A stretch of DNA of 64,000 bases from Streptomyces aquilus (GTDB taxonomy: Bacteria > Actinomycetota > Actinomycetes > Streptomycetales > Streptomycetaceae): contig NZ_CP034463.1 of NCBI RefSeq assembly GCF_003955715.1, forward strand, positions 9,486,001 to 9,550,000, read 5' to 3'. This document shows, in pieces, positions 3,350-63,036 of this stretch. The notes beneath the pieces are model-generated. The model searched no databases. It worked only from the letters and a program-made list of their open reading frames with translations, and was not told where the DNA came from. The position numbers were made by a program, and so were the translations under genes. The first letter of the stretch is position 1, and every line of letters starts with the position of its first letter.

Positions 3350-3691
3350 GTGATGCACCCCGCCACCCCGCACCCCGCCCGGCACGCCACCCCGCCGCCT
3401 CCACCCGCGGGCCCGCACCGCACGACAGCCGCGCTCCCGCCCGTGGACCCCGACCGCTCGACGGCCCTGCTCCTGCCTGCCGACCCCTACCGCACGACAG
3501 CCGTCCTCCCGCCCGCGGACCCCGACCCCACGACGGCCCTGCTCCTGCCTGCCGACCCCTACCGCACGACAGCCGTGCTCCCGTCCGCGGCCACGCACCT
3601 GCTCTCCTCGCACGAGATGTTCCACCGGCTGATGGCCGCCCCCTGGGCGAACCGCCCGCCCGCCCATGCCGTTCCCACGAGGCGCCCGTGA
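3350..3691 (+). CDS. Small proline-rich protein built of five 12-residue repeats
   Basis: 113 residues, no recognised family. After a short Pro/His-rich lead (1-20) come five consecutive 12-residue units (21-80): GPHRTTAALPPV, DPDRSTALLLPA, DPYRTTAVLPPA, DPDPTTALLLPA, DPYRTTAVLPSA; then a 33-residue tail with HEMFHRLMAAPW and a basic end. AGGAG at 3341-3345 precedes GTG 3350 (an ATG is the next codon). Its stop overlaps the avrD-like start (GTGA at 3688-3691), the coupling expected of a translated gene. No signal peptide or TM segment. The repeats could be a scaffold, a carrier or a multi-copy precursor peptide; none of these is shown by the sequence. Confidence 0.6.
   Translation: MMHPATPHPARHATPPPPPAGPHRTTAALPPVDPDRSTALLLPADPYRTTAVLPPADPDPTTALLLPADPYRTTAVLPSAATHLLSSHEMFHRLMAAPWANRPPAHAVPTRRP
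3410..3589 (+). repeat. In-frame tandem repeats encoding five 36-bp units (two 72-bp super-units)
   Basis: Units 2-3 (3446-3517) and 4-5 (3518-3589) form two 72-bp copies that are nearly identical at DNA level, including long shared blocks such as CTGCTCCTGCCTGCCGACCC. This points to recent duplication inside the small gene. Unit 1 (3410-3445) is more diverged. Confidence 0.85.
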
Positions 3692-59407: not shown

Positions 59408-61018
59408 TCATACGGCCATGACTCTTTCGTGGATGTCGGTCACGACCTTGCGGGCCGAGCTGAACGCGCCGTGCTGCCAGGCGATGACATGGCTGAGCCA
59501 GTCGCCGGCGAAGTAGACGTGCCCGGCCGGCTGGTTGAGCAGCTTGTACTCGGGACCGCTCTGCGAGGGCCAGCCCACCCAGCCCGCCTCGATGTGAGGC
59601 GTGCGATGCCAGGCCACGCTGAAGGAGTGATCGAGTTCGGTGCGGTACTTGTCACCGTGGATCTTCACACCCCGGCTCACCGCCCGCGCGACGCGCTCAG
59701 CGTGCGGCAGATCGCTGTAGGCGACGGCGCTGGCACCGAAGTTGTAGTAGCCGATGAGTGTGCCGCGGCGGCCCTGGTAGCCGTACGAGGGGTACCAGAT
59801 GGTCGCCAGGTCCGTGTCGGTCGGCGTGATGCCGCCGTAGATGTGCTCGTCCGTCTCCCACCAGCGGCTGCGGTACTCGAGCCCCACCTTGCCGACAGGC
59901 GTCGGGGAGGCGTACTTCAGCGCGGCGGTGACGTTCGTGCCCAGGTTGTGCTTGAGGCGGGCCATGACCATCGGCGGCATGGCCGCGACGACGAAGTCGG
60001 CGCGCTGGGTGCGGTTGTGGCCGCCGGTGTCCTTGTACGTGACCTCGGCGCCGTCCGGCAGGTCCTTGACCTCCAGCACCGTGGCGCCATAGGTGATGCG
60101 GTGCCGGCCGATCGCCTTGGCCAGGGCGTACGGGATGGCGTCCATGCCGCCCACCGGCTGGAACATCAACATGGCCTGGTCGTAGCCGAATTCGAAGGCG
60201 AAGCGCTGCCCCACGCCGCTGGCCACGACATCCGACAACGTTGGCACCGGGCCGAGGACCGTGCCCTCCTCGAAGGCCGCGCCGGGTTCGACGGAGTAGC
60301 CTCGGCGGTCGCTGCCGGTGTAGGCGTAGCCGTCGGCCTTGCCTTTGATGGCGCCGAAGCTCTGCAGGAACGCGATCAGCCGTTCCTTGTCCTGCGCGGT
60401 GAGCCGTGCGTCAAGGGCGCCCTGGTTGGTGGCCTTGGCGAGCAGTTCGGAGAGGTAGCCGTAGACGTCGGCCTTCGCCGTGCGCCAGCGCATGGGCTTG
60501 CCCGCGAGGGCGGCGCTGTTCTCGTGGTAGATGTACGCGTTGGCGTTCTGGTTGGTGAACACCTGGAGTTCGACGCCGAGTTCGCGGCAGTACTCGAGGG
60601 TGACGTGGGACTGCGGCAGCCGGGCCGGGCCCGCGTTCATGTACTGGCCCTTGGTGAACGACGCCGTCTGCGTGCGGCCGTCGAGGTCGGTCAGCTCGGT
60701 GCCGCCGCGGACCGTCCAATTGCGGCCCCCGGGACGGTCGTTCGCCTCCAGGATGCGGCAGTCGTAACCGGCCTTGCCCAGCTCGTACGCCGTCGCCAGG
60801 CCGGCTATGCCGCCGCCGAGCACGAGCACCTTCTTGCCGCTGCGCCCGGTGAGCGCGAAGTCGCTTTGCCGGGGCGCCCGGTACTCGTCCGCCCGTACGT
60901 CGGGCACCGGGGCGAGCCCGAGTGCGCCCATCGTCGAGTACAGCACTCCGGCGCCGCCCGCGGCACCGACGGATCTCAGGAAGTCACGGCGGGACGCGGG
61001 GGATTGCTCTGGAGCCAT
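59408..61018 (-). CDS. Tat-exported FAD-dependent amine/amino-acid oxidase
   Basis: 536 residues from ATG 61018 (GAGGAGGAATTG upstream). Twin-arginine signal SRRDFLRSVGAAGGAGVLYS at the N terminus. KKVLVLGGGIAGLATAYELGKAGYDCRILEANDRPGGRNWTVRGG is the FAD-binding fold (about 62-105); QPVGGMDAIPYALAKAIG is the monoamine-oxidase-family motif; GWVGWPSQSGPEYKLLNQPAGHVYFAGDWLSHVIAWQHGAFSSARKV closes it with the second FAD contact. Matches secreted L-amino-acid oxidases/flavin monoamine oxidases that release H2O2. Exported folded with FAD. Confidence 0.92.
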   Translation of the reverse strand: MAPEQSPASRRDFLRSVGAAGGAGVLYSTMGALGLAPVPDVRADEYRAPRQSDFALTGRSGKKVLVLGGGIAGLATAYELGKAGYDCRILEANDRPGGRNWTVRGGTELTDLDGRTQTASFTKGQYMNAGPARLPQSHVTLEYCRELGVELQVFTNQNANAYIYHENSAALAGKPMRWRTAKADVYGYLSELLAKATNQGALDARLTAQDKERLIAFLQSFGAIKGKADGYAYTGSDRRGYSVEPGAAFEEGTVLGPVPTLSDVVASGVGQRFAFEFGYDQAMLMFQPVGGMDAIPYALAKAIGRHRITYGATVLEVKDLPDGAEVTYKDTGGHNRTQRADFVVAAMPPMVMARLKHNLGTNVTAALKYASPTPVGKVGLEYRSRWWETDEHIYGGITPTDTDLATIWYPSYGYQGRRGTLIGYYNFGASAVAYSDLPHAERVARAVSRGVKIHGDKYRTELDHSFSVAWHRTPHIEAGWVGWPSQSGPEYKLLNQPAGHVYFAGDWLSHVIAWQHGAFSSARKVVTDIHERVMAV

Positions 61019-61278
61019 CAATTCCTCCTCATCCGAACCCCGGCACGCGCGCCGCCCGGGGTGCGGTCGGTCGGTCAACCCGGTCACGTGGGGGGTGAGT
61101 TGCTGAGGGGACCGGAGGTGCGTCGCCATGAGCCTCCGTCAGGACTGTTACAGCGCCATGCCACTGACGTAACCGGTCCGAGCCGTGAGCCGCGGGCCGC
61201 GAGGAAGGAACGGGCACGCGTAATTCAGGTGCTCATCCAGGACTGCCGTATTACGGTGAACCCCGTTCAGGTGCGCAG

Positions 61279-61366
61279 GTTGCGGCTACTTCTCCTGCAA
61301 AGAGAGCAACGCGGGTTCGAATCCCGTCGCCGGCTTCCGGCCGGTGTCGTCCAGCGGCCCAGGACG
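61279..61366 (+). ncRNA. tRNA-like halves in permuted order (3' half before 5' half)
   Basis: 61290-61335 is a complete 3' tRNA half: anticodon arm TTCTC-CTGCAAA-GAGAG (anticodon GCA at 61297-61299), CAAC, T-arm GCGGG-TTCGAAT-CCCGT, acceptor strand CGCCGGC, discriminator T. After TCCG comes a 5' half: acceptor GCCGGTG (61340-61346), TC, D-arm GTCC-AGCGGCCCA-GGAC, G (61366). The two acceptor strands pair 7 of 7 (one G-U), and the halves rejoined give a 73-nt cloverleaf. GTTGC (61279-61283) also pairs with GCAAC (61306-61310). No 5' half precedes the 3' half. A terminator follows. Permuted tRNA, tRNA-derived RNA or relic are all possible. Confidence 0.45.
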
Positions 61367-61412
61367 CTTACGTCGCCGCCGCCGATCTTGATCTCTGAAC
61401 ACCACGGCGCAG

Positions 61413-61447
61413 GCCGCCCGTCACGGGGGAAACCGGCGGGCGGCTTT
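61413..61447 (+). terminator. Rho-independent-type terminator with T-run
   Basis: GCCGCCCG (61413-61420) and CGGGCGGC (61437-61444), perfect 8-bp arms, then TTTGT. The T-run on the + strand means it terminates a rightward transcript, and the only + strand candidate upstream is the tRNA-like locus. It also separates that locus from the convergent isomerase gene. Confidence 0.72.
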
Positions 61448-61474
61448 GTCGCGTCGGATGGTCGGGCGAGGGCG

Positions 61475-62431
61475 TCATGCTCGTGCAGTGCGTGCCACGG
61501 CTATCCCCGACTGGAGCGCGGCAACCGGATCGGATGCCTCATCGAGCTCGATGAGCACGGTGGCGGCGCCGGGAGTTCGCGCCATCTCTGCGGCCCATGC
61601 GGTGAAGTCCACGATGCCCGTGCCCAGTTGCGTCATGTAGGGCTGTTGCTGCGCGAAGACCGTCTCGTCGATGGTGAGTTCGACGTCGATCGGCCTGACC
61701 GCGTCCTTCCAGTGCGCCAGCGCGATGCGCTGGGAATGGCGGCGCGCGACGGCGACGGGGTCGCCTCCGCCGAGCGCGATGTGACAGGAGTCGGGGCAGA
61801 GCCAGACGTAGCGCGGGTCGGTCAGGGCCATGAACAGGTCGATGTCCCTCTCGTACCAGAGCGTGCTGTTGGACTCGGTGTGGAAGGCCAGGCGCACTCC
61901 GTACTGGGCGACGGCCTCTCCCACCACGTGGGCGATGCCGGCCATGCGGGTCATGTACGCGGCGTCGACGAAGAAAGGGGGACGCGTGCCGAACGTGGCC
62001 CGCATGGGCAGTCCGGCGACGAGAATGTCCGCCCCGACTTCGGCGAGGAAGGCCGCGCGTCGCTCGGCGTCGGCGACGATCGCGGGCAGATTCGAGCCGT
62101 CGCGCCAGTCGGGGCTTTCGCTCGCCGCGATGAAGGCACTCACGACGGACAGGCCGCGGGCCGCGAGGTCGCGGCGGAACGCCGGGGCGTCGCCGAAGGT
62201 CCGAAGGACCGAGTCGATGTCACCGGGCGCGAAAGTCAGCTCGATGCCGGTGACCCCGGCCTCGGTCAGCGCGTCCAGCACCCGTTCCCAGAACCGCTCG
62301 GGGTTCTTGGCGGCCCAGTCGCGGAAGGCGTCGGCGGAATCCAGCCCCCAGAACTCCGGGTGGTAGAAGGTGACGATGTCGGTGGCGAAGCGTGGTTGCG
62401 CGGCGTGCGTCTGCGGGGTCGGTCGGGTCAC
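61475..62431 (-). CDS. Sugar phosphate isomerase/epimerase-like TIM-barrel protein
   Basis: 318 residues from GTG 62431. GVTGIELTFAPGDIDSVLRTFGDAPAFRRDLAARGLSVVSAFIAAS, FLAEVGADILVAGLP, GVRLAFHTESNSTLWYERDIDLFMALTDPRYVWLCPDSCHIALGGGDPVAVARRHSQRIALAHWKDAV and VLIELDEASDP carry the metal-binding Glu/Asp/His/Glu set of the IolE/xylose-isomerase-like barrel family. Related barrels act in inositol and in C-glycoside breakdown. Its start overlaps the deaminase stop (GTGA), so it is coupled to the GMC-deaminase operon. Confidence 0.85.
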   Translation of the reverse strand: MTRPTPQTHAAQPRFATDIVTFYHPEFWGLDSADAFRDWAAKNPERFWERVLDALTEAGVTGIELTFAPGDIDSVLRTFGDAPAFRRDLAARGLSVVSAFIAASESPDWRDGSNLPAIVADAERRAAFLAEVGADILVAGLPMRATFGTRPPFFVDAAYMTRMAGIAHVVGEAVAQYGVRLAFHTESNSTLWYERDIDLFMALTDPRYVWLCPDSCHIALGGGDPVAVARRHSQRIALAHWKDAVRPIDVELTIDETVFAQQQPYMTQLGTGIVDFTAWAAEMARTPGAATVLIELDEASDPVAALQSGIAVARTARA

Positions 62432-63036
62432 GCGGCACCTGCGCGGGCGTTGTAGACGACCGTGCCGTCGGCGTCGACGGCTTTGCGGTAGCCGCGGAAC
62501 ACGGCGAGCGCCTCCTCGCGGAGCACGTCCCCGGCGACCTCGATGCCGCGCGCCTGGAACTGCTCGGCCCAGTCCGCGCCGAGCGGGCCCTCGTCGAACG
62601 TGGTGATCTCCTCCAGTTCCGGGCCCTCGCCGGCGACCACCAGAGCGCGCACCCCGGACCACATCGTCGCGCCGTAGCACTGGACGCACGGACGCCAGTT
62701 CACGACGAGTTCGTGGGCCGGCATTCCGTCGCCGCCGAGGTCCCAGCCGCCCGCCGCCGTCTGGGCCAGTGAGAGCGCGACGACCTCGGCGTGCGCGCTG
62801 GAGACGCCGGAGGCGAGGACGACGTTCACGCCCGCCGAGACGATCCGGCCGGTGTCCCGCTCGGCGACGAGGGCCGCGAACGGACCGCCGTTGCCCTCAC
62901 GCCAGTTGCGGTCGGCGAGTCGGTGGACGAGGCGCATCCGGTCGTCGCGGCCGGGGACGACGGCGGGCACGTCGGCGAGTTCGTCGTCGATCCACGCGGG
63001 CAGTGCCACGCGGTACTCCTTGGGGATGTCCAGCAC
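62428..63036 (-). CDS. Cytidine/deoxycytidylate deaminase-family protein
   Basis: 202 residues from GTG 63036, chosen because GAGAGGAAA lies upstream and it avoids overlapping the GMC gene; ATG 63102 is an alternative. Zinc site: SSAHAEVVAL (H82, E84) and RPCVQCYGATMWSGV (C117, C120), as in guanine deaminase/TadA-like nucleoside deaminases. N-terminal DRMRLVHRLADRNWREGNGGPFAALVAERDTGRIVSAGVN also fits. An aminohydrolase on a nucleobase or another heterocycle; link to the flanking sugar-type enzymes is unknown. Confidence 0.87.
   Translation of the reverse strand: MLDIPKEYRVALPAWIDDELADVPAVVPGRDDRMRLVHRLADRNWREGNGGPFAALVAERDTGRIVSAGVNVVLASGVSSAHAEVVALSLAQTAAGGWDLGGDGMPAHELVVNWRPCVQCYGATMWSGVRALVVAGEGPELEEITTFDEGPLGADWAEQFQARGIEVAGDVLREEALAVFRGYRKAVDADGTVVYNARAGAA

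Follow-up and report, generated by a model that had tools for sequence, protein, structure and literature searches.

A stand-alone Streptomyces RNA with a permuted tRNA-like module, very probably a bacterial Y RNA of the YrlA kind

Our results support a model in which the RNA at positions 61267-61405 of the window, by which we mean the whole 64-kb stretch of DNA that was analysed, is a YrlA-like bacterial Y RNA that carries a permuted tRNA mimic as its inserted module, and we consider this reading very probable. In bacterial Y RNAs of the YrlA kind, an end-to-end stem binds Ro60 (Rsr) and an inserted module docks a second protein. The first-pass annotation had described a circularly permuted tRNA-like locus, and the elements that it named all lie where it placed them: the 3' half of a tRNA precedes the 5' half at 61290-61366, the acceptor strands pair at seven of seven positions with one G-U, and when 61340-61366 is joined to 61290-61335 the product is a 73-nt cloverleaf, called as tRNA-Cys(GCA) by ARAGORN. 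In native order, the whole 64-kb window yields neither a tRNA nor a tmRNA with ARAGORN, and no Rfam family reaches its curated gathering cut-off there. The flanking segments GCGGC (61282-61286) and GCCGC (61375-61379), which had been proposed to hold the ends together, do pair and covary in relatives, but they are more than a 5-bp clamp, since they belong to a full Y-RNA stem formed by 61267-61289 with 61372-61398. The Y stem and the permuted cloverleaf are one covarying RNA, which lies between two minus-strand genes and has the following parts:

61252-61257, plus strand: −10-like promoter element TACGGT, from column conservation, accompanied further upstream by a conserved AA at 61222-61223
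61267-61405, plus strand: Y-RNA-like RNA containing the permuted tRNA module, the stretch covered by the R1 model, from the full-length alignment of relatives and an R1 match of 160.8 bits, the window itself being one of the six rows used to build R1
61267-61270, plus strand: outermost helix of the Y stem, 5' strand, partner 61395-61398; outer pair C-G, U-A, G-C or U-G, third pair A-U, C-G or G-C
61274-61275, plus strand: short inner helix of the Y stem, 5' strand, partner 61389-61390; 93.5% of cells paired, 0 pairs changed on both sides
61278-61289, plus strand: upper helix of the Y stem, 5' strand, whose TAC end abuts the anticodon stem; 98-99% of cells paired, four pairs changed on both sides
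61290-61306, plus strand: closed anticodon-like hairpin of 5 bp with loop CTGCAAA, stem 61290-61294/61302-61306, triplet GCA at 61297-61299; 98.5% of cells paired
61311-61327, plus strand: T arm with loop TTCGAAT; 100% of cells paired
61328-61334, plus strand: acceptor stem, 3' strand CGCCGGC; both-side changes in six of seven pairs
61335-61339, plus strand: loop TTCCG closing the acceptor stem; such cap loops measure 3-5 nt in 47 of 56 rows
61340-61346, plus strand: acceptor stem, 5' strand GCCGGTG, on the same basis as the 3' strand
61349-61365, plus strand: D arm GTCC/GGAC; 99.1% of cells paired, both-side changes in three of four pairs
61372-61383, plus strand: upper helix of the Y stem, 3' strand, from the covariation alignment
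61388-61398, plus strand: TTGATCTC, a segment frequent in relatives, with the outer Y-stem 3' strand, from alignment columns
61411-61447, plus strand: terminator-like hairpin with a 12-bp stem and a TTT end, whose letters recur in many relatives
59408-61129, minus strand: neighbouring flavin amine oxidase gene (PF01593), outside the unit
61475-62689, minus strand: neighbouring xylose-isomerase-like TIM-barrel gene (PF01261), outside the unit, its true start maybe inside the frame

Covariation covers the Y stem and all four tRNA arms. In our main alignment (A5; 56 RNAs in 55 distinct rows including the window, with 37 pairs), standard pairs fill 98.8% of cells, compared with 30-57% when partners are slid, and a smaller alignment of 34 rows has 98.3% of cells paired, figures that lean towards the structure because the alignments were fitted to it. 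Both sides have changed in 19 of the 37 pairs of A5, and its covariation score is 0.321, compared with 0.126 in shuffles. When the modules were un-permuted, ARAGORN called a tRNA in 32 of 32 rows, a test that omitted two short Y RNAs without a full tRNA module (L113:1655-1724 and L114:1380-1488), and in every one of the 56 rows of the larger set, as opposed to 0 of 640 random rotations. ARAGORN also called ordinary tRNAs in native order in two of the 32 rows and at 12 of 23 viral loci, which limits how far a tRNA caller can be relied on for these RNAs. Nine of the calls at those 12 loci (L224, L226-L228, L230-L235, L237 and L245) are tRNA-Ser(GCT), and databases may mis-annotate such RNAs. Single-sequence folding of the window did not return the whole cloverleaf as the minimum-energy structure; a consensus fold of eight sequences gave the whole cloverleaf, and a consensus fold of all 20 was less complete.

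As the first-pass annotation had expected of a genuine unit, both halves are conserved together in relatives. A 152-nt query matched two congeners over its full length (G033 at 90% and G016 at 86%) and others in part (G032, 86% over 136 nt; G025, 79% over 126 nt), as well as G074 from another family (77% over 126 nt), and a relative on a 678-kb Streptomyces plasmid has 89.6% identity over 96% of the query. In its own genome, the whole query matches only itself, and a second locus at 2.746 Mb, which is part of an array, has a 72% match to it across 96 positions (E 0.0013). A pattern scan of GTDB species representatives returned 52 named loci, 49 of them in Streptomyces and one each in Glycomyces, Planomonospora and "Actinobacteria bacterium", a set that leans towards window-like RNAs because the pattern was written from window-like sequences. 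One of these loci, L154, which is absent from A5, holds a copy at 3674 that has lost the acceptor 5' strand and the D arm and kept the 3' end of the Y stem. The covariance model R1, built from six sequences with the structure set by hand, matched 169 of 392 genomes of the genus at E ≤ 1e-12 (eight candidates scored per genome, tallied by hand); this threshold was used because many genomes have single matches at about 1e-6 to 1e-8 that are presumably tandem tRNAs. Across the phylum, eight of 396 genomes matched at E ≤ 1e-9, of which seven belong to the window's genus and the eighth, G477, is weak at 1.5e-11. The relatives have common ends either side of the module, 5' GGTGCGnAGG...TACTTC and, in most of them, 3' TTGATCTCnG, and the same ends are also present in short RNAs without a tRNA module.

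The alignment also indicates where the Y stem joins the tRNA scaffold. The closed anticodon hairpin has changes of its own, with pair 27-37 occurring as UA 37 times, GC 16 times and CG twice, and pair 28-36 as CG 51 times, AU three times and GC once; the Y stem thus enters between the D stem and the anticodon stem. This sets the window RNA apart from Rfam YrlA (RF02553), which it resembles in having a Y stem round a permuted module and the order T arm, acceptor hairpin and D arm. In RF02553, the stem runs through a split anticodon-like helix with which it is continuous, whereas the hairpin at 61290-61306 of the window is closed and covaries; the window copy, unlike the copies matching RF02553 best, which adjoin rsr, is also unlinked to that gene. 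RF02553 nonetheless scores higher on the stretch than any other Rfam family, at 16.6 bits (E 1.1) against a gathering cut-off of 69, a value reached in none of 61 genomes of the genus, and rsr-linked copies score up to 59 bits with it (L080). Tandem ordinary tRNA genes score about 40 bits with RF02553 and are a source of false positives.

Both kinds of junction occur in Streptomyces. The copy 3 Y RNAs of Streptomyces rsr arrays (for example L036:3885-4024), together with the rsr-linked L080, share the Y stem ends and the permuted module with the window RNA, but their anticodon stem is split and covaries, so that they are permuted inside the anticodon loop, as in RF02553. The split stem is paired in 36 of 40 cells (eight sequences), compared with 15-43% when slid, in an alignment (A6) that retains a row, G027, shifted by one base in the anticodon helix; its covariation score was reached by 0 of 500 shuffles, and for two others of the five measures 93 and 102 of 500 shuffles did as well. 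By eye, the copy 1 Y RNAs of the same arrays and an RNA of Gordonia phage BearBQ have the window's topology, with a closed anticodon-like hairpin of 5 bp and 7 nt and a Y stem between the D stem and the anticodon stem; they differ in being linked to a Ro60 gene and in the sequence of the D arm. The split and closed-hairpin kinds indicate two break points on one scaffold, even within one array. As a separate observation, the copy 3 RNA of the window genome's own rsr array (L028:3866-4012, minus strand; G000:C1:2745865-2746011) is nearest to tRNA-Leu(gag), and its variable arm is long, like that of a class II tRNA. Across species, the modules at this same array position are nearest to Leu, Arg, His and Lys tRNAs, as if swapped (11 copies: L028, L034-L038, L040, L041, L044, L046 and L047), and that of G033 has long runs in common with tRNA-Arg(acg) of the window genome (G000).

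The link to Ro60 is seen at many of the relatives, downstream of which a protein starts that in this genome has 526 amino acids and a partial TROVE match (model positions 290-351 of 442 only; 50.9 bits, cut-off 23). By sequence, this protein is the predicted Ro60 orthologue Rsr. Its gene is an open frame without stops (G000:C1:2744236-2745813), and ahead of it, at 2745865-2746214, lie two Y RNAs that bear a tRNA module. The window copy itself is an orphan at 9.547 Mb, 6.8 Mb apart from rsr at 2.744 Mb. It nevertheless combines an end-to-end stem shared with rsr-adjoining RNAs, a tRNA-like module and a genome that encodes Rsr. Judged by architecture and relatives, the window RNA belongs to the wider bacterial Y RNA class, but by score and topology it falls outside Rfam YrlA.

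Among the 52 named loci, rsr lies directly downstream in eight, and this is also the case at L032, L033, L101, L113 and L114; the other 44 have no rsr in the available stretch, a count that includes four not firmly orphans, with less than 350 nt (L126, L163 and L165) or less than 500 nt (L125) available downstream of the match start. At the level of genomes, 192 of the 392 have a TROVE match, and with R1 counted at E ≤ 1e-12, 162 have both, seven R1 only, 30 TROVE only (eight candidates scored per genome) and 193 neither; this co-occurrence is largely direct linkage. Of the seven R1-only genomes, four have no rsr by protein search, including G235, which has two strong R1 matches (C2:1089808-1089944 and C2:752005-752142) and no rsr by TROVE or protein search, and three, each with a strong Y RNA match, hold rsr fragments only (G342:C13:128452-128853, G164:C2:137187-137733 and G209:C1:6106851-6107311). 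The comparison of most relevance to the window is that of the orphans. TROVE is encoded in 25 of the 26 genomes with a fetched orphan, compared with 167 of 366 others (Fisher p 1.2e-7, a value that is indicative, since the genomes counted are related and it overstates their independence). The fetched set comprised 30 loci, 26 of them without rsr within about 1.5 kb, including L108, which shows only about 600 nt downstream.

Ro60 genes also accompany these RNAs in viral sequence. The sole match among 50,697 phage records, in BearBQ, covers 26% of the query and lies directly upstream of a gene annotated as 'Ro-like RNA binding protein', which has TROVE and Ro60 vWA domains. In the BearBQ gap that precedes this Ro-like gene, where there is no annotated feature (L222:1316-1728), we observed a Y-like RNA with a tRNA module and an apparent second one without. 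A Ro60-like gene is present in the available stretch of 22 of 23 viral contigs with the motif, the exception being L225, although not all of these contigs are phages, as several look like host rsr loci.

The window lineage stands by itself, carries its own promoter-like and terminator-like elements and is found nearly always in Rsr-encoding genomes. We compared the flanks of loci without linked rsr, the window included, with 43 of the 44 loci usable on each side owing to contig ends. In the 70 nt upstream of 43 RNAs, TACnGT at −15 to −10 and AA at −45/−44 are conserved, and a hairpin with a T tail follows in 23 of 43 downstream stretches, compared with 207 of 2000 random windows, with hairpin letters that recur across species. 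It is from these conserved flanking elements that the plus-strand transcription unit with its own terminator, as proposed in the first-pass annotation, draws its support. The terminator itself stands as a strong hairpin (61411-61446), but its T-run amounts to three T (61445-61447), and neither a sigma-70 consensus scan nor a stricter terminator consensus scan made a call at the locus. By flanking similarity, 53 loci fall into 31 groups, a number inflated by short contigs and by plastic Streptomyces arms; the window's own neighbourhood recurs in L155, from Streptomyces sp. GKU 895. When the 56 RNAs are placed in a midpoint-rooted tree, the orphans come out separately from the rsr-linked copies, a candidate grouping drawn from short sequences of about 139 nt.

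That grouping would also be expected if the orphans were tRNA-derived regulatory or decoy RNAs, descended from a Y RNA and now free of Rsr, for example baiting enzymes that recognise the anticodon arm. The G235 genome, with its two orphans and no rsr found, and the combination of a closed anticodon hairpin, a U33 present in 56 of 56 rows and a variable triplet point the same way. However, orphan-bearing genomes still encode TROVE in nearly every case, and the orphans keep the Y stem that they share with rsr-linked copies, which makes loss of the Rsr connection improbable. Among the alternatives listed in the first-pass annotation, a tRNA-derived regulatory RNA nonetheless came nearest to what was found.

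Less probable again, and in our view very unlikely, is that the locus is a functional circularly permuted tRNA-Cys gene, whose precursor would be cut at the acceptor ends and rejoined between the D arm and the anticodon arm to give a decoding tRNA. The circularly permuted tRNA genes of algae and archaea likewise have the 3' half ahead of the 5' half and yield a rejoined cloverleaf, and the window RNA has the reversed order, the full cloverleaf, paired flanks and the triplet GCA after U33. In those genes, however, the anticodon is retained and the product matures into a tRNA, whereas the RNAs described here have a drifting triplet and closed acceptor ends. No anticodon identity is conserved among the 56 RNAs, which have 13 different triplets: CTC in 18, GTC in 13, GCA and GCT in five each, GCC in four, GTA in three, TCC in two and CCA, ATC, CAT, GTT, TGG and AGG in one each. 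With the anticodon loop masked, the nearest tRNA of this genome is tRNA-Glu for 36 of the 56 modules, tRNA-Trp for 10, tRNA-Cys for one and others for nine. The cap loop that closes the acceptor stem, 3-5 nt in most rows and 6-17 nt in nine, leaves at the shorter lengths scant or no room for a discriminator and CCA or for a leader. The genome already has two distinct ordinary tRNA-Cys(GCA) sequences, and the association with Ro60, whose gene often lies beside members of the family, also argues against a tRNA gene. The variable triplet, the kept fold and the small acceptor-closing loops indicate a tRNA mimic rather than a decoding tRNA.

We also found no normally ordered parent tRNA, and rejected a scrambled copy of a tRNA of this genome: among its 71 distinct tRNA sequences from fetched stretches, the best match to the unmasked module is tRNA-Glu(ttc), at only 54 identical of 78 aligned columns and narrowly ahead of tRNA-Cys(gca) at 53 of 77. 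Those sequences come from 75 above-cut-off matches, with one at 10385371, the mirror of 8544, left out. These two matches (G000:C1:8544-8617 and 10385371-10385444) score equally, in opposite orientation and equidistant from the chromosome ends, as expected of a mirrored tRNA pair inside terminal inverted repeats. The ordinary tRNA or tmRNA was likewise rejected, as neither is called in the window by ARAGORN or by Rfam at gathering score. A permuted tmRNA-like piece was also among the first-pass suggestions. The window RNA resembles the permuted two-piece tmRNA in being a bacterial RNA with permuted acceptor ends, but ARAGORN makes no tmRNA call in the window, and tmRNA families are absent from the three matches listed at E ≤ 10 for 61100-61600, a listing from which a further overlapping hit to the tRNA clan, with a lower score, had been dropped. 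That a deletion fused two tandem tRNA genes and left as a relic a 3' half and then a 5' half has next to no probability. Although tandem tRNA genes imitate the order (RF02553 gives 39.3 bits to two neighbouring tRNA genes at G000:3528661-3528774), such a relic is rejected by the covariation, with acceptor strands that pair and have changed on both sides in six of seven pairs, flanks that form a covarying stem and a whole unit conserved in many species.

If the window RNA is a Y RNA of the YrlA kind, a mechanism can be proposed in which the orphan is transcribed and Rsr, encoded 6.8 Mb away, would bind its Y stem in trans, while the tRNA-shaped module would offer a tRNA-like surface to a second protein. 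By analogy with other bacteria, that protein may be PNPase or a tRNA-handling enzyme. The RNA would thereby tether or gate Rsr, as known bacterial Y RNAs suggest, and we put the probability of such a tether or gate mechanism at about one half. The module would not be chargeable as long as its acceptor ends stay closed. Given the free anticodon-like hairpin with U33 throughout, what the second partner recognises may be the anticodon arm's shape rather than a fixed triplet.

A broader reading, which we put forward tentatively and hold at slightly less than an even call, is that Y RNAs captured tRNAs more than once, with different break points, and that Streptomyces has a stand-alone cassette that serves Rsr in trans. 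The two kinds would be those broken in the anticodon loop (Rfam YrlA and copy 3) and those broken between positions 26 and 27 (the window RNA, copy 1 and BearBQ). The cassette, derived from the second of these kinds, would consist of promoter, RNA and terminator, set in many neighbourhoods, and would present a full tRNA shape with a free, non-decoding anticodon arm: in an image, a tRNA decoy held on a Ro60 leash.

These results have implications for annotation as well as for the origin of Y RNAs. RF02553 stays below its cut-off in all 61 genomes of the genus scored with it, and ARAGORN takes some of these RNAs for ordinary tRNAs, so that Ro60 partner RNAs of a common class are probably under-annotated. 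With two permutation points and modules like different isotypes on one Y scaffold, the origin of tRNA mimicry in Y RNAs becomes directly testable, as does the question of which tRNA feature the second partner reads, given that both kinds of module and the orphan occur in one strain. More generally, where a bacterial genome shows a permuted tRNA, the locus may encode a Y RNA instead of being a rearranged tRNA gene.
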